Shown one piece after another: positions 22,675 to 32,752 of a stretch of DNA of 32,990 bases. The translations under genes were made by a program, and so were the position numbers. Origin of the DNA: an uncultured Bacteroidota bacterium (GTDB lineage: Bacteria > Bacteroidota > Bacteroidia > AKYH767-A > OLB10); assembly GCA_903847585.1 (NCBI GenBank), contig CAINEC010000054.1, positions 1 through 32,990 of the forward strand. Direction: 5' to 3'. The notes below the pieces were generated by a model. The model was not told the DNA's origin and ran no database searches. It worked only from the letters and a program-made list of their open reading frames with translations. The number at the start of each line of letters is the position of its first letter. Position 1 is the stretch's first letter.

Positions 22675-23010
22675 TTATAAATCTAAAACAACGCGAATGT
22701 TGTTTTTAAGTGTTACTATTTGCTCTTTTGTGAGCGTACTAAGTTTCTTAATTAATCGCTTGTTGTCAATAGCCCTAATTTGATCAACAAGAATGTCAGA
22801 TGCAGCATCAAGTTGATTTGTTTTTAAATGGACGCGCAGCAGTTCTATTTCTGGTTTGACTTGAGAGGTAATTGGACAAATTAATGTGGATGGGTGAAAA
22901 TCATTAAGCAAGTTTGTTTGAATAATTACAACAGGACGTTTTTTACCAGGCTCGGTTCCTCGTGTTGGGTTAAGGTCTGCAAGCCAAATATCATATTGTT
23001 TAATTTTCAT
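22675..23010 (-). CDS. Type II toxin, PemK/MazF family endoribonuclease
   Basis: A 111-aa protein with the MazF core. The N-terminal strand is YDIWLADLNPTRGTEPGKKRPVVIIQ (Asp-Leu-Asn-Pro and Gly-x-Glu-x-Gly-Lys-x-Arg-Pro motifs). SHORT segments ICPITSQ and LVDQIRAIDNKRL follow, as in sequence-specific mRNA interferases. Its start overlaps the end of the antitoxin gene by 11 bp, the usual antitoxin-first arrangement. The pair would act in stress response or in stabilising this locus. The cleavage sequence cannot be predicted from the protein. Confidence 0.92.
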   Translation of the reverse strand: MKIKQYDIWLADLNPTRGTEPGKKRPVVIIQTNLLNDFHPSTLICPITSQVKPEIELLRVHLKTNQLDAASDILVDQIRAIDNKRLIKKLSTLTKEQIVTLKNNIRVVLDL

Positions 23011-23230
23011 CTACTAGTTTTTCAAATTCACTTAATATATCCATCGAATCCTTTCTAGTAAGTTTAGATTCTCTAAGAAGTTGTTTTTTTAAAAGCTTCC
23101 TTTTGTTGTAAAGGTTGTAAATACTTACCGCTTCATTAATATATCGGTTTCGCGCAAGATTAAGTTTTGAAGTTATCTCTTCTGCCTCGTCAAAAATTTT
23201 ATCATCAAGTTTTAATGAAAGTGTTTTCAT
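23000..23230 (-). CDS. MazE-like ribbon-helix-helix antitoxin
   Basis: A 76-aa protein starting MKTLSLKLDDKIFDEAEEI, a ribbon-helix-helix type N-terminus (beta strand, helix, then the helix of RNRYINEAVSIYN). A charged, probably flexible C-terminal tail would wrap the toxin. ATG at 23230 is chosen because the RHH motif starts there and a promoter lies just upstream; extending to 23275 would read through that promoter. It overlaps the mazF-like toxin gene by 11 bp. It is expected to neutralise the toxin and repress the pair's own promoter. Confidence 0.85.
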   Translation of the reverse strand: MKTLSLKLDDKIFDEAEEITSKLNLARNRYINEAVSIYNLYNKRKLLKKQLLRESKLTRKDSMDILSEFEKLVDEN

Positions 23231-23244
23231 AGTCTGCTTTTTTA

Positions 23245-23271
23245 CAAAGGTACATACCAAAAGTATATACC
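23245..23271 (-). promoter_or_regulatory. Toxin-antitoxin promoter with overlapping inverted repeat
   Basis: On the minus strand TACCTTTG (23252-23245) is a perfect -7 box, 14 nt before the antitoxin ATG. Directly over and upstream of it lie two 9-bp arms, GGTACATAC (23249-23257) and GTATATACC (23263-23271), which are inverted at 8 of 9 positions with a 5-bp spacer. This is the expected place and shape for an autoregulatory RHH operator. Confidence 0.65.
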
Positions 23272-23319
23272 ACAAGAATAATGATAAATAATCTGTGGTG
23301 TAGCCTTCCGAAAGCCCTA

Positions 23320-24117
23320 CTACAACGCCTTCTTAATCTCATTCATCTCCGCCTCTACCTTCTCAATCTTTTTCAGAATCTTATCGCGCTCCCAATATTT
23401 ATCAGGAATCTCGCTGCTGAGGTAGTTGCAAAATTTCCAGACTTCTCTAATCTCGTTTACGGAAACATCATAAGCTTCGTAAAGTGGATTCAACGATTGT
23501 AGTGTTAGACTTTTTTTCTTCTTGATGTTGTTATTCGCAACTTTAAAAACAACACCATCATCTTCCGTCAGGAAAATATAAGCCTGTCCATCTTTAATGT
23601 CGTAGAAGTTTTCTACATACTCTCCAATCACCCAACTCTTATCGGGTATCGGTAACATCGAGTCGCCACTGATTTGAAACATTCTATACTTGCGCTCACC
23701 AAATAAAATCGGTAACTGAAAGGTAGGAAGCTTCTTGATGAAATCAGGATCAGCATACCCGCTCTTATAACCTGCTTTTGCTTTGATAGGAACTACTTCA
23801 ATATTTTCTTTATTGTTGCTGTCAACCGTAGTTGCCAATACGCGCAGCTTCGCACCCGTTACAAATACATCGTGCCCTCGTTCTAATTCCGAAAGTTGAA
23901 ATTCGGATACGCGCGACAAATCAATTTTCACCAGCGTGTCTAAACTCATCTTAAAAAATTTCGAAAAAGAAACCAGCGCTTCCAACGTAGGATTTTGTAC
24001 GCTACCATTCTCATAACTGTTAATTGTGGAACGACTAATACCTAGTTCGATTGCTACCATGTCCTGCGTAAGCTTGCGACGCTGACGAAGTATTTTAATG
24101 TTGGAGTTGAAGTACAT
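23320..24117 (-). CDS. XRE-family repressor with LexA-like S24 self-cleavage domain
   Basis: A 265-aa protein. An N-terminal helix-turn-helix (about 6-61; MVAIELGISRSTINSYENG) is followed by a linker and a peptidase S24 domain. The autocleavage bond is probably Ala115-Gly116 (IKAKAGYKSG), the nucleophile Ser153 (SGDSMLP) and the general base Lys192 (VVFKVANN); spacings of 38 and 39 residues are close to those of LexA. The C-terminus adds a charged helix. It is divergent from dinB, with 82 bp between them that carry one copy of the bipartite element also found before the dnaE operon. It is thus the likely DNA-damage-responsive repressor of the DinB-DnaE module. It is XRE-type rather than winged-helix LexA. 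Confidence 0.88.
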   Translation of the reverse strand: MYFNSNIKILRQRRKLTQDMVAIELGISRSTINSYENGSVQNPTLEALVSFSKFFKMSLDTLVKIDLSRVSEFQLSELERGHDVFVTGAKLRVLATTVDSNNKENIEVVPIKAKAGYKSGYADPDFIKKLPTFQLPILFGERKYRMFQISGDSMLPIPDKSWVIGEYVENFYDIKDGQAYIFLTEDDGVVFKVANNNIKKKKSLTLQSLNPLYEAYDVSVNEIREVWKFCNYLSSEIPDKYWERDKILKKIEKVEAEMNEIKKAL

Positions 24118-24130
24118 ATTAAAATTTGGT

Positions 24131-24166
24131 TATATTACAGCCTTTCAAATAGATTGTATTACCGCC
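24131..24166. promoter_or_regulatory. Bipartite element A between the S24 repressor gene and dinB
   Basis: TATATTACAGCC (24131-24142) and GATTGTATTACCGCC (24152-24166) start 21 bp apart. The same two blocks, with the same 21-bp offset, occur at 25428-25463 upstream of the dnaE operon (10 of 12 and 12 of 15 positions identical). Nothing else in the window shows this arrangement. It is the likely operator of the S24 repressor. Confidence 0.65.
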
Positions 24167-24199: not shown

Positions 24200-25378
24200 A
24201 TGCAAAAAGACAGAACAATTGTACATATGGATCTGGACAGTTTTTTTGTTTCTGTTTCACGACTGGAAAATTCCGCTTTACACAACAAGCCCGTTATTGT
24301 GGGTGGCACTAGTGATCGAGGTGTGGTAGCCGCTTGTAGTTACGAGGCCCGCGCCTTTGGTGTGCATTCTGCCATGCCTATTAAACTCGCCCGCCGACTT
24401 TGTCCCGATGCCATTATTATTCGTGGCGACTATGACCGCTACTCGTATTATTCAGAAGTGGTCACCGATATTATTAAAGAAGACGTTCCTGTTTATGAGA
24501 AGTCGTCGATTGATGAGTTTTATATTGACATGACCGGTATGGATCGTTTCTTCGGATGTTATAATTATACTTCGGAGTTGCGTCAGCGTATCATGAAAGA
24601 AACAGGGCTTCCTATTTCCTTCGGATTATCAGAAAATAAAACCGTATCAAAAGTGGCTACCGGGGAGGCAAAGCCTAACGGACAAAAGAAGATTGATTTT
24701 GGAGATGAGAAAGTTTTTTTAGGTCCGCTTTCCATAAAGAAAATTCCGATGGTGGGTGATAAAACGTACACGCTCTTGCGCAGCATGGGTGTTGAACGCG
24801 TATTTACGTTACAAGAAATGCCGCCCGATCTTTTAACAAAAGTGTTAGGCGAAAACGGATTTGTCCTTTGGAAAAAAGCCAATGGCATTGACAATACTCC
24901 CGTAGAACCTTATAGCGAACGCAAGTCGATTTCAACAGAAGAAACGTTTGAACAAGACACAGCCGATGTAGTATTTTTAAAATCCTTGCTGGTAAAGATG
25001 ACAGAGAAGCTGGCCTTTCAACTGCGTTCGGAGAATAAACTAACGGCATGCATTACCGTAAAGATACGCTACTCTAATTTTGATACACATACTACCCAAT
25101 CACGCATCTCGTATACCTCTTCCGACCATACGCTTATTGCAAAAGCAAAGGAGCTTTTTGATAAGTTGTATGAACGCCGGATGTTGATTCGATTAATTGG
25201 AATAAGGTTTAGTCATCTGGTAGGTGGCGGAAATCAAATCAACCTTTTTGAAGATTCCGAAGAGATCATTAATCTGTACCAGGCCATGGATCATTTGCGG
25301 AAAAAGTTTGGAAATACCGCCGTTTTGCGCGCCGTTGGACTAAAAGGCGATCAAAAAAAGAAATCAGACAATCAATAA
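24200..25378 (+). CDS. dinB: DNA polymerase IV (Y family)
   Basis: A 392-aa translesion polymerase. Catalytic carboxylates are visible in VHMDLDSFFVSV (Asp11, Asp13) and SSIDEFYIDMTG (the Asp-Glu pair, about residues 99-110). The helix-hairpin-helix region (IPMVGDKTYTLLRSMG) and little-finger domain follow. QINLF at residues 346-350 is a beta-clamp binding motif. ATG 24200 is chosen because conserved sequence starts there; an upstream in-frame TTG would add 34 unconserved residues. The divergent S24 repressor and downstream dnaE suggest a damage-inducible mutagenesis set, analogous to the LexA-ImuA-ImuB-DnaE2 module of other bacteria but with an intact DinB in place of the inactive ImuB. Confidence 0.95.
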   Translation: MQKDRTIVHMDLDSFFVSVSRLENSALHNKPVIVGGTSDRGVVAACSYEARAFGVHSAMPIKLARRLCPDAIIIRGDYDRYSYYSEVVTDIIKEDVPVYEKSSIDEFYIDMTGMDRFFGCYNYTSELRQRIMKETGLPISFGLSENKTVSKVATGEAKPNGQKKIDFGDEKVFLGPLSIKKIPMVGDKTYTLLRSMGVERVFTLQEMPPDLLTKVLGENGFVLWKKANGIDNTPVEPYSERKSISTEETFEQDTADVVFLKSLLVKMTEKLAFQLRSENKLTACITVKIRYSNFDTHTTQSRISYTSSDHTLIAKAKELFDKLYERRMLIRLIGIRFSHLVGGGNQINLFEDSEEIINLYQAMDHLRKKFGNTAVLRAVGLKGDQKKKSDNQ

Positions 25379-25427: not shown

Positions 25428-25463
25428 TATATTGCAACCATCATGTTTGATTGTATTACAATC
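25428..25463. promoter_or_regulatory. Bipartite element B upstream of the small membrane protein-dnaE operon
   Basis: TATATTGCAACC (25428-25439) and GATTGTATTACAATC (25449-25463) match element A with identical 21-bp offset. The second block is a perfect inverted repeat, GATTGTA and TACAATC around one central T. TTTG at 25446 and TAGAATTG at 25468-25475 form a plausible promoter (18-nt spacer, one mismatch at -7), so a protein bound here would cover the polymerase site. Confidence 0.65.
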
Positions 25464-25504: not shown

Positions 25505-25542
25505 CGTTGCCGTGTAGCTAAGGAAGGAGTTACACGGTAGCG
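25505..25542 (+). other. RNA hairpin in the dnaE operon leader, purine-rich loop
   Basis: CGTTGCCGTGTAGCT (25505-25519) pairs with AGTTACACGGTAGCG (25528-25542) over 15 consecutive base pairs (three are G-U), closing an 8-nt loop AAGGAAGG. No T run follows, so it is not a standard terminator. It lies between element B and the 46-aa gene and would be in the transcript if the promoter at about 25446-25475 is used. Confidence 0.6.
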
Positions 25543-25584: not shown

Positions 25585-25725
25585 ATGGATTCATTAGACT
25601 TAATTCTGACAGCCTTGCGCTACACACCCGTTGCTTTAATGCTTGTTTCATTAGCAGGACTTCTTTACTTACAAATCAAGGAAGCCTATCTGCAAAAAAA
25701 CACGCGTTACCAACGTCGTTATTAA
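25585..25725 (+). CDS. 46-aa single-pass membrane protein in the dnaE operon
   Basis: ATG at 25585 opens a 46-codon frame. It has a short polar start (MDSLDLILTALRYTP), one hydrophobic helix of about 18 residues (VALMLVSLAGLLYLQI, residues about 16-31) and a basic tail ending RYQRRY. The positive tail suggests an N-out, C-in inner-membrane orientation. It sits between the shared bipartite element and dnaE, 37 nt before the dnaE ATG, so it is probably made together with the polymerase. I know no family for it. SOS-induced small membrane proteins elsewhere act as division inhibitors, but that is only an analogy. Confidence 0.6.
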   Translation: MDSLDLILTALRYTPVALMLVSLAGLLYLQIKEAYLQKNTRYQRRY

Positions 25726-25762: not shown

Positions 25763-28700
25763 ATGTTTTTGAACTGTCATTCATGGTTCAGCTTTTACTA
25801 CGGAACAATGTCGGTAGAACAGCTCCTGCAAGAAGCTAAACAGCAGGGACTGAAAAAAATTGCATTTACCGATATTAATAATACTTCTGGCATTCTTGAT
25901 TTTGTTCGGCTGGCGCCGCAGTACGGGATTCAACCAATTGCGGGAATTGCATTTCACGATGGCGATGATCTAAGGTTTATCGGCCTTGCTCAGAACAATG
26001 AAGGGTATGAAGAGCTGAATATCTTTCTTTCTTCTTGCTTAAAAACCGCTTCGGAAAAAAATCAAACATCGGGTAACCGCGATGCCGTTATACCAGATCG
26101 AGCACCGATGTTTAAAAATGTATTTGTCGTTTATCCGACCAGCGCTCCCTTTTTAAAAACAGTTTCGTTTGAATCAATTGCTTTTGTTGGTAAGCGTGCT
26201 CAACGAGGAGAGCTGATGAAGGCCAGAGCATCCAAGGAAAAGAAGAATCCACAAAATGCATTAAGAGATTACGAGTACATTGGGGTTCGAGAGGAAGAGT
26301 TGTTACAGATACAATTTTCGTTTTCTCCTAATGCTTATAACAAGTGCGTCGCCCTTTGTCCGGTAACAGTGCGCAATAAAACAGATCATAATATTCATCG
26401 CCTATTAACAGCAGTAGGGAAAAATGAATTATTAAGTCGTGTACCTGCTACCGTCTTTTGTAAGGAAGACGAAACATTTAGGTCGGAAGCGGATATTCGT
26501 GAGCGTTATAAAGAGTATCCCGAGATTATTCGAAACACAGAAACGATTCTAAAAAATTGTCATCTTTCGTTCGACTTTCATAAAAGCAAGAATAAACAAT
26601 GTTTCACGGGAAGCAAAGAGTTGGATGCGGCGCTCTTGAAAAAAGAAGCCTATAAAGGAGCAACGAAAAGATATGGCACTCGCCTGAGTGAAAAAATAAA
26701 AACGCGTATCGAGAAAGAATTAACCATGATTATTGATCTTGGTTTTTGTGCGTACTTTTTAATTAACTGGGATATACTTCGTTTTGCACGCAAGCGAGGG
26801 TTCTTTTACGTTGGAAGAGGAAGTGGTGCTAACAGCATGGTGGCGTATTGTTTAAATATTACCGATGTAGATCCCGATGATCTCGATTTATATTTCGAAC
26901 GGTTTATTAATCCGTATCGGCAAAACCCTCCCGACTTCGATTTAGATTTTTCGTGGAAGGATAGAGATGAAATCACCAATTATATTTTCAACCGACACGG
27001 AGAGAATCATGTGGTGTTGATGGGAACGTATACAACATTTCAAAAAGATGCGGTGATACGTGAGCTAGGAAAAGTGTTTGGTTTGCCGAAAGCGGAAATC
27101 GATGCGCTACAGAACACAGGTGACTATACTACCGCTGGTGAATATGGGAAGTTGATTTTAAAGTATGGTGCGCTCATAAAAGATTTTCCTCATCACCTGA
27201 GTGTGCATGCAGGAGGAATAATTATTTCGGAGAAACCCATCTATGCGTATACAGCATTGAACTATCCACCCAAAGGATTTCCAGTTACGCAGTTTAGTAT
27301 GTTGGAATCAGAAGATGTTGGCTTGTATAAGTATGATATTTTAAGTCAGCGGGGACTAGGCCACATTAAAGACACCATCGAACTTGTAAAGAAGAATAAA
27401 GGAATTGAGATTGATATTCGAAGGATTGAAGAGTTTAAACAAGACGAAGCCATCAAACAATTAATAAGAGACGGAAGATGCATCGGCTGCTTTTATGTGG
27501 AGAGTCCTGCGATGCGCATGTTATTGAAAAAGTTAAACGTAGATCAATACATACAACTCGTGGCAGCGAGCTCTATTATTCGTCCTGGTGTAGCTAGCAG
27601 TGGTATGATGCGCGAGTATATTTTGCGAACACACCATCCGGAGAAAAGAACGTATATACACCCCGTTATGAAGGAGCTGATGGAAGAAACCTATGGTGTG
27701 ATGGTGTATCAGGAAGATGTGATTAAGGTAGCGCATCATTTTGCTGGATTGGATTTATCAGAGGCAGATGTATTGCGAAGAGGAATGAGTGGTAAGTTCC
27801 GATCGAGGGAGGAGTTTTTAAAAATAAAAAATCGTTTTTTTGATAATTGCAAAGAGCGAGGATATACGGAAGCTATTACGAGTGAAGTATGGCGACAAAT
27901 AGAAAGCTTTGCGGGCTATTCGTTTTCAAAAGGACATTCAGCATCGTATGCGGTGGAGAGTTATCAGAGTTTATATTTGAAAGCGCATTATCCGCTAGAA
28001 TTTATGGTGGGCGTGATTAATAATTTTGGTGGCTTTTACCGAACAGAATTTTACGTACACGAAGCGCGTATGTCGGGAGCAACGATTGCACTGCCTTGCG
28101 TGAACACGGGTGAATATTTAACCAGTATTGAAGGCGAAGTCATCACATTAGGATTTATTCATTTAGCAGGATTAGAATATGACACAGCTACATCAATAGC
28201 CCTCGAGCGAAATAAAAACGGATCATTTACTTCGTTGCATGATTTCATGAATCGAATAAGTATTGAGTTAGAGCAGTTGCGTTGTTTGATACGCATCGGT
28301 GCGTTTCGATTTACAGGAAGAAGTAAGAAGCAGTTGTTGTGGGATATTCATCTGAACATGGAGCAAGGAAAGAAGACCGTGGTGCGACAAGAATTATTTC
28401 AGCAGGAGTTACCGAACTATCAATTGCCAACGTTGCATCATCACGATTTAGAAGATGCATTGGATGAAATAGAGCTGATAGGATTTCCGGTGTGTTCTCC
28501 GTTTCGATTACTAAAACAGGCGCCTGAAAAATTTTCGAATCCTAAAATAAAAGTAAATGAAATGTCAAAACACGTAGGGGAATATGTGTGTATACTTGGC
28601 TATCTTGTTACTATCAAACCTACGCGCACAGGCAAAGGCGAAGCAATGTCGTTTGGTTGTTTTATAGATGAAGAAGGCGCTTTTGTAGACACCACTCATT

Positions 28701-28852
28701 TCCCGTTAACTCTTAAAAAATATCCGTTTAGAGGAAGAGGAATTTATTTGATAACTGGAAGAGTAGATATTGAATTTGGCTTTTGCAGTATAACGGTTTC
28801 GGGTATGGAAAAACTGGCGACGATGGGGAGAGATGATCTTTCAAAAATTTGA
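25763..28852 (+). CDS. dnaE: DNA polymerase III alpha subunit, second-copy/ImuC (DnaE2)-like
   Basis: A 1,029-aa C-family polymerase, shorter than a replicative DnaE (about 1,160 aa) and of the size of error-prone ImuC/DnaE2. An N-terminal PHP domain starts LNCHSWFSFYYGTMSVEQL. The palm motif is GRGSGANSM (352-360), then PDFDLDF with catalytic Asp393 and Asp395; the third Asp is in KYDILSQRGLGH. A C-terminal OB-fold-like region lies at about 945-1010. ATG 25763 is chosen because homologues begin there. An AAAGGAG ribosome site at 25728-25734 is unusually strong for this phylum but serves an out-of-frame ATG at 25738. The 3' end is duplicated at 29877-30041. Its partnership with DinB and the S24 repressor is inferred from context. 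Confidence 0.9.
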   Translation: MFLNCHSWFSFYYGTMSVEQLLQEAKQQGLKKIAFTDINNTSGILDFVRLAPQYGIQPIAGIAFHDGDDLRFIGLAQNNEGYEELNIFLSSCLKTASEKNQTSGNRDAVIPDRAPMFKNVFVVYPTSAPFLKTVSFESIAFVGKRAQRGELMKARASKEKKNPQNALRDYEYIGVREEELLQIQFSFSPNAYNKCVALCPVTVRNKTDHNIHRLLTAVGKNELLSRVPATVFCKEDETFRSEADIRERYKEYPEIIRNTETILKNCHLSFDFHKSKNKQCFTGSKELDAALLKKEAYKGATKRYGTRLSEKIKTRIEKELTMIIDLGFCAYFLINWDILRFARKRGFFYVGRGSGANSMVAYCLNITDVDPDDLDLYFERFINPYRQNPPDFDLDFSWKDRDEITNYIFNRHGENHVVLMGTYTTFQKDAVIRELGKVFGLPKAEIDALQNTGDYTTAGEYGKLILKYGALIKDFPHHLSVHAGGIIISEKPIYAYTALNYPPKGFPVTQFSMLESEDVGLYKYDILSQRGLGHIKDTIELVKKNKGIEIDIRRIEEFKQDEAIKQLIRDGRCIGCFYVESPAMRMLLKKLNVDQYIQLVAASSIIRPGVASSGMMREYILRTHHPEKRTYIHPVMKELMEETYGVMVYQEDVIKVAHHFAGLDLSEADVLRRGMSGKFRSREEFLKIKNRFFDNCKERGYTEAITSEVWRQIESFAGYSFSKGHSASYAVESYQSLYLKAHYPLEFMVGVINNFGGFYRTEFYVHEARMSGATIALPCVNTGEYLTSIEGEVITLGFIHLAGLEYDTATSIALERNKNGSFTSLHDFMNRISIELEQLRCLIRIGAFRFTGRSKKQLLWDIHLNMEQGKKTVVRQELFQQELPNYQLPTLHHHDLEDALDEIELIGFPVCSPFRLLKQAPEKFSNPKIKVNEMSKHVGEYVCILGYLVTIKPTRTGKGEAMSFGCFIDEEGAFVDTTHFPLTLKKYPFRGRGIYLITGRVDIEFGFCSITVSGMEKLATMGRDDLSKI

Positions 28853-28975
28853 GATTACCAATCTGATTCGATAATTTATTAATATTTATATACTTTAGTA
28901 CATAAGAAATAACACTGCGTCAATACACCCAATAACGACAACTGGATAATATTTATAGCGGGCATAAGATAGTCA
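28688..28975 (+). repeat. Direct repeat, left copy: dnaE 3' end plus downstream DNA
   Basis: The last 165 nt of dnaE and about 120 nt beyond its stop recur at 29877-30160. The coding parts align without gaps; the downstream parts share TTATATACTTTAGTACATA and TATAGCG with small indels. The two copies bracket the methyltransferase gene at 29010-29771. Confidence 0.85.
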
Positions 28976-29009
28976 GCTCTAATTGTATGACGACATATCA
29001 CGACAAAAA

Positions 29010-29771
29010 ATGGACATTGTAAAACATAACCAATCAGCTTGGGATAATTACGTTGACAAAAAAGACCGTTGGACAATTCCTGTTTCCGAACAAGAATTAG
29101 AAAACGTAAAGAATGGAAACTGGAATATTGTTTTAACACCGAAAAAACCTGTCCCTCACAATTGGTTTCCCGATTTGAAAGGTTTAAAAATTTTAGGACT
29201 TGCATCTGGTGGTGGACAACAAGGACCAATTCTTGCAACTTTAGGGGCAGACGTTACTATTTTTGACAATTCCGAAAAGCAGTTACAACAAGACAAAACG
29301 TTAAGCGACAAATTTGACCTTGACATAAAAACAGTTCAAGGAGATATGAAAGACCTTTCATTGTTTGCGGACAATTCATTTGACCTGATTTTTAATCCTT
29401 GTTCAATACTCTTCGTTGACAATGTTTTGCCAGTTTGGAAAGAATGTTTCCGAGTTTTGAAACCAAATGGAATTTTAATGACTGGTTTAATCAACCCAAT
29501 TTCATTTCAACTTGACGAAGAATGTTTGAAACTAATTTACAAGCAACCATTTTCAGACCTGTACTCATTGCCGACAGAAAAATTAGAAGAATTGAAAAAT
29601 AACAATGAAGCTTTGGTATTTGGACATAGTTTGACAGACCAAATTAGCGGACAATTAGACGCTGGTTTTAACTTGACAAATATGTATGAAGACAATTGGG
29701 GAGGAGAAAGTAAAATGGATGATTTTTTCCCTGCCTTTATAGCGACAAGAGCAATAAAAAGAATACAATGA
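29010..29771 (+). CDS. Class I SAM-dependent methyltransferase (accessory module 1)
   Basis: A 253-aa protein with SAM motif I ILGLASGGGQQGPILA (about residues 62-77), the acidic end of strand 2 (TIFDNSEKQL), motif VQGDMKDL, and FDLIFNPCSILFVDNV with VLKPNGILMTG, typical of Methyltransf_11 proteins. ATG 29010 is preferred over a TTG 27 nt upstream because homologues of this type start at MDIVKHNQSAWDNYV. It stands alone between the two copies of the dnaE 3' end and ends about 20 nt before a boundary motif shared with the next module, so it looks recently acquired. Substrate unknown; small-molecule or drug modification is possible. Confidence 0.8.
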   Translation: MDIVKHNQSAWDNYVDKKDRWTIPVSEQELENVKNGNWNIVLTPKKPVPHNWFPDLKGLKILGLASGGGQQGPILATLGADVTIFDNSEKQLQQDKTLSDKFDLDIKTVQGDMKDLSLFADNSFDLIFNPCSILFVDNVLPVWKECFRVLKPNGILMTGLINPISFQLDEECLKLIYKQPFSDLYSLPTEKLEELKNNNEALVFGHSLTDQISGQLDAGFNLTNMYEDNWGGESKMDDFFPAFIATRAIKRIQ

Positions 29772-29822: not shown

Positions 29823-29876
29823 ATCTTCGTTGATTTCTAATTCGTTTTCTAAAGAAATGTTTTTCTTAAAAGCATA

Positions 29877-30041
29877 GACACTACTGCTTTTCCGATAACG
29901 TTTAAAAAATATCCGTTTAGAGGACGAGGAATTTATTTGATCACCGGAAGAGTAGATATTGAATTTGGCTTTTGTAGTATAACGGTATCGTGTATGGAAA
30001 AACTGGCTACGGTGGGGAGGGATGATCTTTCAAAATCTTGA
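29877..30041 (+). pseudogene. Detached second copy of the dnaE C-terminus
   Basis: An uninterrupted frame of 54 codons plus stop matches the last 54 residues of the intact DnaE at 48 positions (DTTAFPITFKKYPFRGRG ... GRDDLSKS). There is no start codon or promoter, so it is a fragment. Of 18 base differences, 10 are silent, more than expected for drift in a dead copy. It therefore probably came from another strain's functional dnaE allele, or is the original end displaced by an incoming one. Confidence 0.85.
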
Positions 30042-30160
30042 TATTACCAATCCGATAATTTATAAATATTTATATACTTTAGTACATACGAAATAAAACT
30101 GCGCCAATACAGCCAAATTCGGAAATATAAGGAAGCTTTATAGCGTGTATAAGGTAGTTA
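29877..30160 (+). repeat. Direct repeat, right copy: dnaE 3' end plus downstream DNA
   Basis: Counterpart of 28688-28975. Beyond the stop codon it keeps TATTACCAATC, a shared AT-rich block and TATAGCGTGTATAAGGTAGT, matching TATAGCGGGCATAAGATAGT on the left. Immediately at its end begins the 10-bp inverted repeat that brackets module 2. Confidence 0.85.
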
Positions 30161-30416: not shown

Positions 30417-31592
30417 ATGGCAAAAAGTGATTTAGCAAAGGCGAAAAATGGGAAAAACGATGAGTTTTACACACAATATCACGATATTGAAAATGAAATC
30501 AACGCCTATTTAGAATATGACCCAAATGTTTTTAAGGGTAAGACAATATTGCTACCCTGTGACGACCCAGAATGGAGCAACTTTACGAAATTCTTCGCGC
30601 AAAATTTCCAACGACTAAAAATAAAAAAACTTATAAGCACTAGTTTTGCTCACGAAAGCAAAAATATTAAAAGTAATTATCAGCCAACACTTTTTGAAAC
30701 TAATGACCCCCAATTTGACCGTAAAAAAACCATAGTGAACGGTAAAATATTTACTTTGGAAAAGGATAAAACAGGTGACGGAAAAATTGATGTAAATGAT
30801 TTAGAGTGGCAATACTTAAATGGTGACGGAGACTTTAGAAGCGAAGAGATAAAAAAATTAAGAGATGAATCAGATATAATTATTACGAATCCACCATTTT
30901 CTTTGTTCAGAGATTTTTTAGCGTGGATAGTCGAAGCCAATAAAAAATTTGTGATTATTGGTAATATGAATGCCATTACATACAAAGAAGTTTTCCCATT
31001 AATCAAAGATGATAAAATGTGGACAGGCAGTAGATTTAACAAGAGATTAAATGGCAAGAATATGACATTTTTAGTCCCTGACAATTATGCTTTAAGTGGA
31101 ACAGAAGTGGAACTAAATAATGAAGGAAAAAAAATGATTAGTGTTGCTGGCACAGGTTGGTTTACGAATCTTGACCACGGTATAAGACACCAGTTTTTGC
31201 CGCTTATGACAATGGGGGATAATATCAAATTCAGCAAACACAAAGAAATTAAAGGACAAGAGTATAAAAAATATGACAATTACGATGCTATTGAAATTCC
31301 ATATACAGATGCAATTCCAAGCGACTATGATGGTGTTATGGGAGTTCCTATAAGTTTTTTGCCGAAATATAATCACGAGCAATTTGAAATAGTCGCATTA
31401 GGAATTGGCGAGGGGAATTTTACACCAACAAAAAAATACGCAAAATTTAGAGACCCGAAAACAAAAAAAATTATATCGGACAAACGAGATTTTCTATTGT
31501 ATGTAAAAGATGAAGATGGAAAATATTTGACCGCTGATGATTACATAGTAAATAAAGTTTATGCAAGAATACTTATAAAACATAAAAAATGA
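30417..31592 (+). CDS. Adenine-specific DNA methyltransferase, EcoRI family
   Basis: A 391-aa protein resembling M.EcoRI, which makes N6-methyladenine. The N-terminal [16 protein letters not shown] (13-28) is characteristic. [13 protein letters not shown] (about 44-56) stands in the SAM-binding position, and the catalytic [12 protein letters not shown] contains NPPF at 158-161. The length is somewhat above M.EcoRI (326 aa). It overlaps the nuclease gene by 4 bp (ATGA), so the two proteins are translationally coupled, as in restriction-modification operons. The likely role is protecting host sites from the partner nuclease. The recognition sequence cannot be deduced. No clear promoter was seen; TAACTTTA at 30384 is a weak candidate. 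Confidence 0.85.
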
Positions 31593-32752
31593 TAACAACA
31601 TTAAAAACAGAAATTAGCGTAAGGGAAATTTGTGAAGGTTTCGTTTATAATTCGCTTGAAGGTAGAGGTCTTTTTGGATTGTCAGGTAAATTGACAATAC
31701 AACCTGAATACCAAAGAAACTATATTTATGCTGACGGAGTTAGGGATGTCCGCGTAATTGAATCTATTCTAAAAGGCTATCCATTAGGTTTAATTTACTT
31801 TAATAAACCGAGTGCAGATACGCTTGAAGTGTTGGATGGTCAACAACGAATCACAAGTTTTGGTCGGTATGTTACTGGTAAATTTGCCATTAAAGATGAA
31901 AATGGAATGGAGCAATATTTTAGTGGTATTGCCAAAGACAAACAAGAAATTATTTTAAATACAAAACTACTAATTTACGAATGTGAAGGAACAGAAAGTG
32001 AAATCAAAGAATGGTTTAGAACCATAAATATTGCTGGTGTCCCACTTAACAACCAAGAATTGCTCAACGCTGTTTATTCCGGTCCATTTGTAACTCTTGG
32101 TAAAGCAGAGTTTAGTAACAGTCAAAATGCAAACATTCAAAAATGGAGTGCTTATATTTCTGGCAGTGTTAACAGACAAGCGTTTTTGGAACAAGCTCTC
32201 GATTGGGTAAGTAAAGGCGAGATTGGCGACTATATGAGTAAACATCGCAGAGAGGACAACATAGATGAATTGAAGACTTATTTTAATAGTGTAATTGATT
32301 GGATTTCCACAGTATTTACTGCTGTTGAAAGCGAAATGTGTGGTCTTGAATGGGGGCGTTTATACGAACTTTATCATAGCAAGCCTTATAGCCCTAAAGT
32401 TGTTTCAGGGAAAGTTAAAGATTTGTATGCTGACCCATATGTAAAAAATAGAAGAGGCGTTTTTGAATATATTCTAGGAGGTTCAACAGACACTAAACTT
32501 TTAGACGTGAGAGTATTTGACGAGGCAACTAAAAAATCTGTTTATGGTAAACAAAAAACAGAAGCAGAGAAAAAAGGAATTTCAAATTGTCCGTTGTGTG
32601 CAGTTGGTAACAATGCAAACAAAAATAAAATATGGTCATTAGCCGAAATGGATGCTGACCACGTTTCTGCTTGGAGCAAAGGCGGTGCGACAGACATCAA
32701 GAATTGTGAAATGTTATGTAAGACACACAACAGAGCGAAAGGAAATAAATAA
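31589..32752 (+). CDS. DUF262-HNH nuclease, putative restriction partner of the methyltransferase
   Basis: A 387-aa two-domain protein. The N-terminal DUF262 (ParB/Srx-like, GmrS type) shows QPEYQRNY (38-45) and the signature DGQQRITSF (83-91), which in related proteins binds or hydrolyses nucleotides. The C-terminal HNH nuclease has zinc ligands CPLC (334-337) and LCKTH (376-380) around the catalytic [12 protein letters not shown] and NCEMLC, followed by HNRAKGN. Both domains appear intact. Its ATG overlaps the methyltransferase stop in ATGA. DUF262 nucleases act in modification-dependent systems (GmrSD, SspE); here the partner is an EcoRI-type methyltransferase, so cleavage of unmethylated sites, or of differently modified DNA, are both possible. 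Confidence 0.85.

Follow-up and report, generated by a model that had tools for sequence, protein, structure and literature searches.

A 46-residue membrane microprotein leads an SOS-type dnaE operon in uncultured Bacteroidota and may act as a division brake

The operon of an SOS-type dnaE gene in an uncultured Bacteroidota genome opens with a short gene whose product is predicted to be a single-pass membrane protein of 46 amino acids. Within the window, by which we mean the whole stretch of DNA analysed (32,990 nucleotides), this gene occupies positions 25585–25725 of the forward strand, where a frame running from ATG to TAA encodes MDSLDLILTALRYTPVALMLVSLAGLLYLQIKEAYLQKNTRYQRRY. The case for it draws on the open reading frame itself, homologues found in place in other genomes, purifying selection, hydropathy and charge, and an AlphaFold model. 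As its best-supported role, and by analogy with known systems, we propose that the microprotein may be a division brake of the SidA/YneA kind that acts during DNA repair, a reading to which we assign a probability of roughly 0.4. The wider claim, that the Bacteroidota would here have their first division checkpoint protein under SOS control, one of a new membrane microprotein family leading a mutagenic polymerase operon, is more tentative still.

The microprotein ATG lies 206 nt past dinB and 121 nt past an operator-like palindrome, and its stop codon is separated from dnaE by a gap of 37 nt in the window. The earlier note had described a 46-residue frame with a transmembrane helix and a basic tail between the operator and dnaE; sequence, hydropathy and charge all agree with that description. 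The upstream dinB gene (24200–25378, forward strand) encodes a Y-family polymerase IV (Pfam IMS and IMS_C) with a C-terminal QINLF clamp-binding-like motif, read from the sequence. Downstream, dnaE (25763–28852, forward strand) encodes a 1029-residue SOS polymerase of the DNA polymerase III alpha type (Pfam DNA_pol3_alpha, finger, HHH_6 and PHP), which scores above the cut-off of TIGR00594 and below that of the error-prone subfamily PRK05672 (503 bits against a cut-off of 939). No match to the ImuA model NF033429 was found in the genome. At the carrier loci the order is operator, then microprotein, then dnaE, with dinB in a variable position: adjacent in the window, L032 and L035, about 2.7 kb away in L034, and not found nearby in G005 and G007. 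The microprotein is thus constantly linked to dnaE and optionally to dinB.

Two further features lie downstream of the operon. The last ~180 nt of dnaE together with ~65 nt of downstream sequence (28686–28932) are repeated 1.19 kb further on, at 29875–30116, with 88–91% identity, and the two copies flank a methyltransferase-domain gene (28983–29771) in what looks like an insertion or duplication scar. The region 30417–32752 contains an EcoRI-methylase-family gene (PF13651) followed directly by a gene for a protein with GmrSD_N and HNH domains, a probable restriction-modification pair beside the SOS cassette.

Homologues of the microprotein occur in three genera within one family of uncultured Chitinophagales-like Bacteroidota. 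Six genomes besides that of the window (G000) carry it: G004 (98% identity, E 1.7e-24), G007 (1.8e-9), G005 (2.7e-6), G020 (1.6e-5), G012 (1.4e-4) and G016, where a contig end cuts the gene; in the others it stands directly 5′ of dnaE. Locus L031 encodes an identical microprotein. The earlier note had named lack of conservation in relatives, or stop codons inside the frame, as grounds for giving up the gene; we found intact homologues upstream of dnaE instead. Between the window and L032, eight codons differ synonymously and one non-synonymously (dN 0.0095, dS 0.30), and the probability of at least 8 of 9 differences being synonymous is ~1e-4 at a 25% background. Because synonymous changes dominate within the genus, the microprotein appears to be under selection. 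Conservation in place and the synonymous excess rule out a chance open reading frame, and the 46-residue frame is a real gene.

The microprotein matched no Pfam or NCBIfam family, known toxin families included, at an E-value of 0.001, and its profile matched no PDB chain. A tblastn search of plasmid and phage collections was likewise without a match, and we rejected a phage or plasmid origin on this ground. By sequence, the microprotein represents a new protein family, of a size so small that standard gene callers may miss such genes.

Its distribution is narrow. A set of 80 dnaE loci taken from named genomes contains five with the microprotein (L031–L035) and 75 without; in the order that was searched, related dnaE genes stand without it except in the seven carrier genomes. 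On the DnaE phylogeny, the carriers fall on a single branch with full support and require one change only, and no member of the carrier clade is without the gene, which indicates a single origin with no loss seen. Four members of the genus that lack the SOS-type dnaE (G001, G002, G003 and G006, three of them less than 90% complete) also lack the microprotein. When 395 genomes were drawn from across the class, and another 395 from across the phylum, only weak partial matches came up (E 1.7e-4 or worse). The expectation of a conserved short frame upstream of dnaE2-like genes is therefore borne out in one clade, and a wide or general feature of Bacteroidota dnaE2 operons is rejected by the draws and by the 75 dnaE loci without it. 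Hydrophobic short frames 5′ of dnaE at other loci (e.g. L044, L048, L070 and L081) appear to be chance frames, AT-rich or overlapping. Taken together, these comparisons show that the microprotein gene is young, clade-specific, selected and tied to its SOS-type dnaE.

A profile scan placed an SOS-type operator, TATATTGCAACC-N9-GATTGTATTACAATC, before the microprotein gene (25428–25463, forward strand), and a second copy was identified by profile scan and genomic pattern search in the divergent S24-repressor/dinB promoter (24131–24166, forward strand). When the 32-bp pattern was searched with up to three mismatches in the 3-Mb genome of the window, exactly two matches were obtained, at 24131 and 25428, so that the repressor promoter and its target share the operator. 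G004 also has exactly two, at S24/dinB and at microprotein–dnaE. In G005, G007 and G020 both promoters carry the operator, the microprotein copy being exact and the dinB-side copy having two or three mismatches; G005 contains a third site with three mismatches (L170), whose adjoining sequence matched no cassette gene. In L034 the operator is just 6 nt from the ATG. In G012 the operator was matched at S24/dinB only, with none directly before the microprotein gene, and expression there would require either transcription that runs on from dinB or a degenerate site. The same genome has a tandem duplication before the microprotein gene (L035, 4580–4652) that ends in TGTATTACAGC and resembles two operator half-sites.

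The gene divergent from dinB (23320–24117, reverse strand) encodes a repressor with HTH_3 and Peptidase_S24 domains (Pfam, 1.5e-13 and 9.5e-7), the non-canonical LexA type of Bacteroidota. Repressors of this architecture run the SOS response in the phylum (PMC8565304). By eye, its sequence contains KAKAG-Y, GDSM and VVFK, putative candidates for the Ala-Gly cleavage site and the Ser-Lys dyad expected of such a repressor; structural comparison matched the HTH part only. No canonical LexA DNA-binding domain was found in the genome, and S24-domain matches elsewhere are limited to the C-terminal region of one long helicase-like protein (L178, 1–1932, on G000:C6). On the other side of the repressor gene, 22675–23275 (reverse strand) holds a PemK/MazF-like toxin gene (PF02452), which together with a short upstream frame probably forms a toxin-antitoxin pair of type II. 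Because the strict operator pattern occurs at two genomic sites only, the microprotein gene would stand closest to the promoter in an SOS regulon that has two operators and is run by the Bacteroidota "non-canonical LexA". The earlier prediction that the microprotein is induced together with the polymerases gains support from the same two matches, and co-induction, as inferred from sequence, is well supported.

The gap between operator and microprotein also contains a strong leader hairpin with a 15-bp stem, GCCGTGTAGCT...AGTTACACGGTAGC (25509–25541, forward strand). It occurs as a single copy in each of G000 and G004 and was absent from all other genomes searched. Since it is confined to these two closest genomes, the hairpin is probably not part of the core mechanism. 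A known RNA element in the leader was considered and rejected, as no Rfam family matched.

The homologues are 37–48 residues long and share a common layout, comprising an acidic amphipathic N-terminus, an R-Y-x-P motif, a transmembrane core of about 17 residues and a short basic tail whose sequence varies. Ten positions are invariant in the alignment: M1, D2, D5, R12, Y13, P15, L26, L27, Q30 and E33. The N-terminal stretch 2–13 is amphipathic in all members (muH 0.48–0.55, net charge −1). The hydrophobic core spans residues 15–31, with a 17-residue Kyte-Doolittle mean of 1.98, and is not amphipathic (muH 0.14 or less). The tail has a net charge of +4 in the window protein and of +2 to +4 across members; beyond the (K/R)E at the membrane edge (E33) it extends for 4–15 residues, conserved in neither sequence nor length. 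AlphaFold modeled a single helix over residues 3–45 with a mean pLDDT of 80.6. The protein is accordingly predicted to insert as a small single-pass inner-membrane protein, with a topology that, from the positive-inside charge rule alone, is probably N-out/C-in. Conservation thus lies in the N-terminus and the membrane core rather than in the predicted cytosolic tail, a pattern in keeping with a partner that lies in or across the membrane.

These properties suggest how the system could work. Upon DNA damage, the S24 repressor would undergo RecA-stimulated self-cleavage, as inferred from its family (PMC8565304), and both operators would open. Judging from gene order and operator position, the transcript from the second operator would yield the microprotein first and DnaE after it. 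The microprotein would insert as one helix, probably N-out/C-in, and its amphipathic N-terminus, R12-Y13-x-P15 and one transmembrane face could bind a membrane partner. An SOS-induced single-pass protein with a conserved surface in and outside the membrane would best fit a brake on a membrane machine. Late-divisome proteins are the best-documented targets, being hit by SidA, DidA, YneA, SosA and ChiZ (PMC4211646, PMC13396833, PMC6851548), and small integral membrane blockers of late division such as YneA, SosA and ChiZ are a widespread SOS output (PMC13396833). By this analogy, the most likely partner would be the late divisome or a septal wall synthase of the FtsW/FtsI class, and division would be held back during translesion synthesis, as happens with SidA in Caulobacter and with YneA in Bacillus. 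It was not until 2021 that the SOS response of Bacteroidota was described (PMC8565304); a word search of that study returned "division" once, in the introduction, and no inhibitor appears to be reported there. For the division checkpoint that the phylum is so far missing, the microprotein is a small and specific candidate that can readily be tested. If the proposal is true, division arrest and error-prone synthesis would come from one transcript, and mutagenesis would be coupled to a membrane process.

Several points speak against a division brake. The gene is found in three genera only, and Bacteroidota outside them whose dnaE locus is of the same type must do without it or with something else. 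A low-information single helix fits many membrane roles. In G012 the gene has no operator match immediately in front of it. Finally, searches of Pfam, NCBIfam and PDB revealed no likeness to a known family.

The main rival, which we nevertheless consider unlikely, is a membrane-active SOS peptide of the TisB/DinQ kind that lowers membrane potential and ATP and thereby slows growth or promotes persistence. DinQ, an inner-membrane peptide of 27 residues under SOS regulation, causes membrane depolarisation (PMC3567139), and the microprotein resembles such peptides in its size, single helix, SOS control and amphipathic N-terminal segment. Its membrane core, however, is not amphipathic, and a strong toxin as the first gene of a polymerase operon would be costly. 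TisB- and DinQ-type loci also need antisense RNA and long processed leaders, whereas here the operator can lie within 6 nt of the ATG, the hairpin is limited to the two closest genomes, and Rfam gave no match. An equally unlikely alternative is some other membrane role, as a regulator of a transporter, a protease or envelope stress, or, when DNA is damaged, as an aid to chromosome segregation or to natural uptake of DNA; the single conserved helix is compatible with this, but no gene of these kinds is linked to the microprotein at its loci.

The earlier note had also raised anchoring of the polymerase, in which the basic tail would act as a membrane tether or local recruiter holding DnaE, DinB or DNA near the membrane. 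The constant operonic linkage with dnaE and the positive tail are in keeping with such a role, but the tail is unconserved and offers no conserved cytosolic surface, and most related dnaE loci do without the microprotein, which together argue against anchoring. Known mutasomes rely on clamp contacts, and DinB here carries a clamp-binding-like motif of its own. We consider anchoring improbable. Of the two other roles raised in that note, delayed division agrees best with published SOS microproteins (SidA, YneA and SosA), and no feature pointed specifically to a damage signal. Least probable of all, the frame would serve as a leader whose translation tunes dnaE expression, through translational coupling or attenuation for instance, and the peptide itself would have no role: the frame is short, always 5′ of dnaE and sometimes close to it, but the spacing from its stop to dnaE ranges from 37 to ~390 nt across loci, which argues against translational coupling, while amino acids and transmembrane character are kept across genera, synonymous changes are in excess within the genus, and no known RNA element was matched.

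The cassette resembles imuA-imuB-dnaE2, with a repressor, a Y-family polymerase and a dnaE-type polymerase under SOS control (PMC8565304, PMC10421592); here, in contrast, a dinB-type Pol IV replaces imuB, imuA is missing from the genome, DnaE falls below the error-prone-subfamily cut-off, and the operon includes a membrane microprotein. The regulation is like that of the Bacteroidota non-canonical LexA regulon, in which an HTH_3 and S24 repressor is divergent from dinB and polymerases are targets, but the operator TTRCARYC-N9-GAYTRTAWTAC is unlike the motifs published so far, CTAA-N5-TTAG and GGA-N5-TCC (PMC8565304), and the regulon is reduced to two operators.

Among small SOS membrane proteins, TisB and DinQ of E. 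coli are also short hydrophobic helices whose production the SOS repressor controls (PMC3567139); the microprotein differs in its polymerase operon, its non-amphipathic core and, from the sequence alone, no indication of a processed leader or antisense RNA. YneA, SosA and ChiZ are likewise bitopic and SOS-induced, and block late division (PMC13396833, PMC6851548), whereas the microprotein is much shorter and has neither a LysM domain (Pfam) nor an extracellular domain. Pfam, NCBIfam and PDB-profile searches gave no match that would tie the microprotein to SidA, and these collections, to our knowledge, hold no dedicated SidA model. SidA of Caulobacter crescentus, which is controlled by the SOS repressor, is a very small protein that crosses the inner membrane once and binds FtsW (PMC4211646), and by hydropathy and the AlphaFold helix the microprotein is predicted to be single-pass as well. 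It differs from SidA, which has 29 residues, in its length of 37–48 residues, its basic tail and its place in a dnaE operon. By type, then, the microprotein joins the SOS membrane microproteins, and what sets it apart is that its gene comes first in the operon of an error-prone polymerase.
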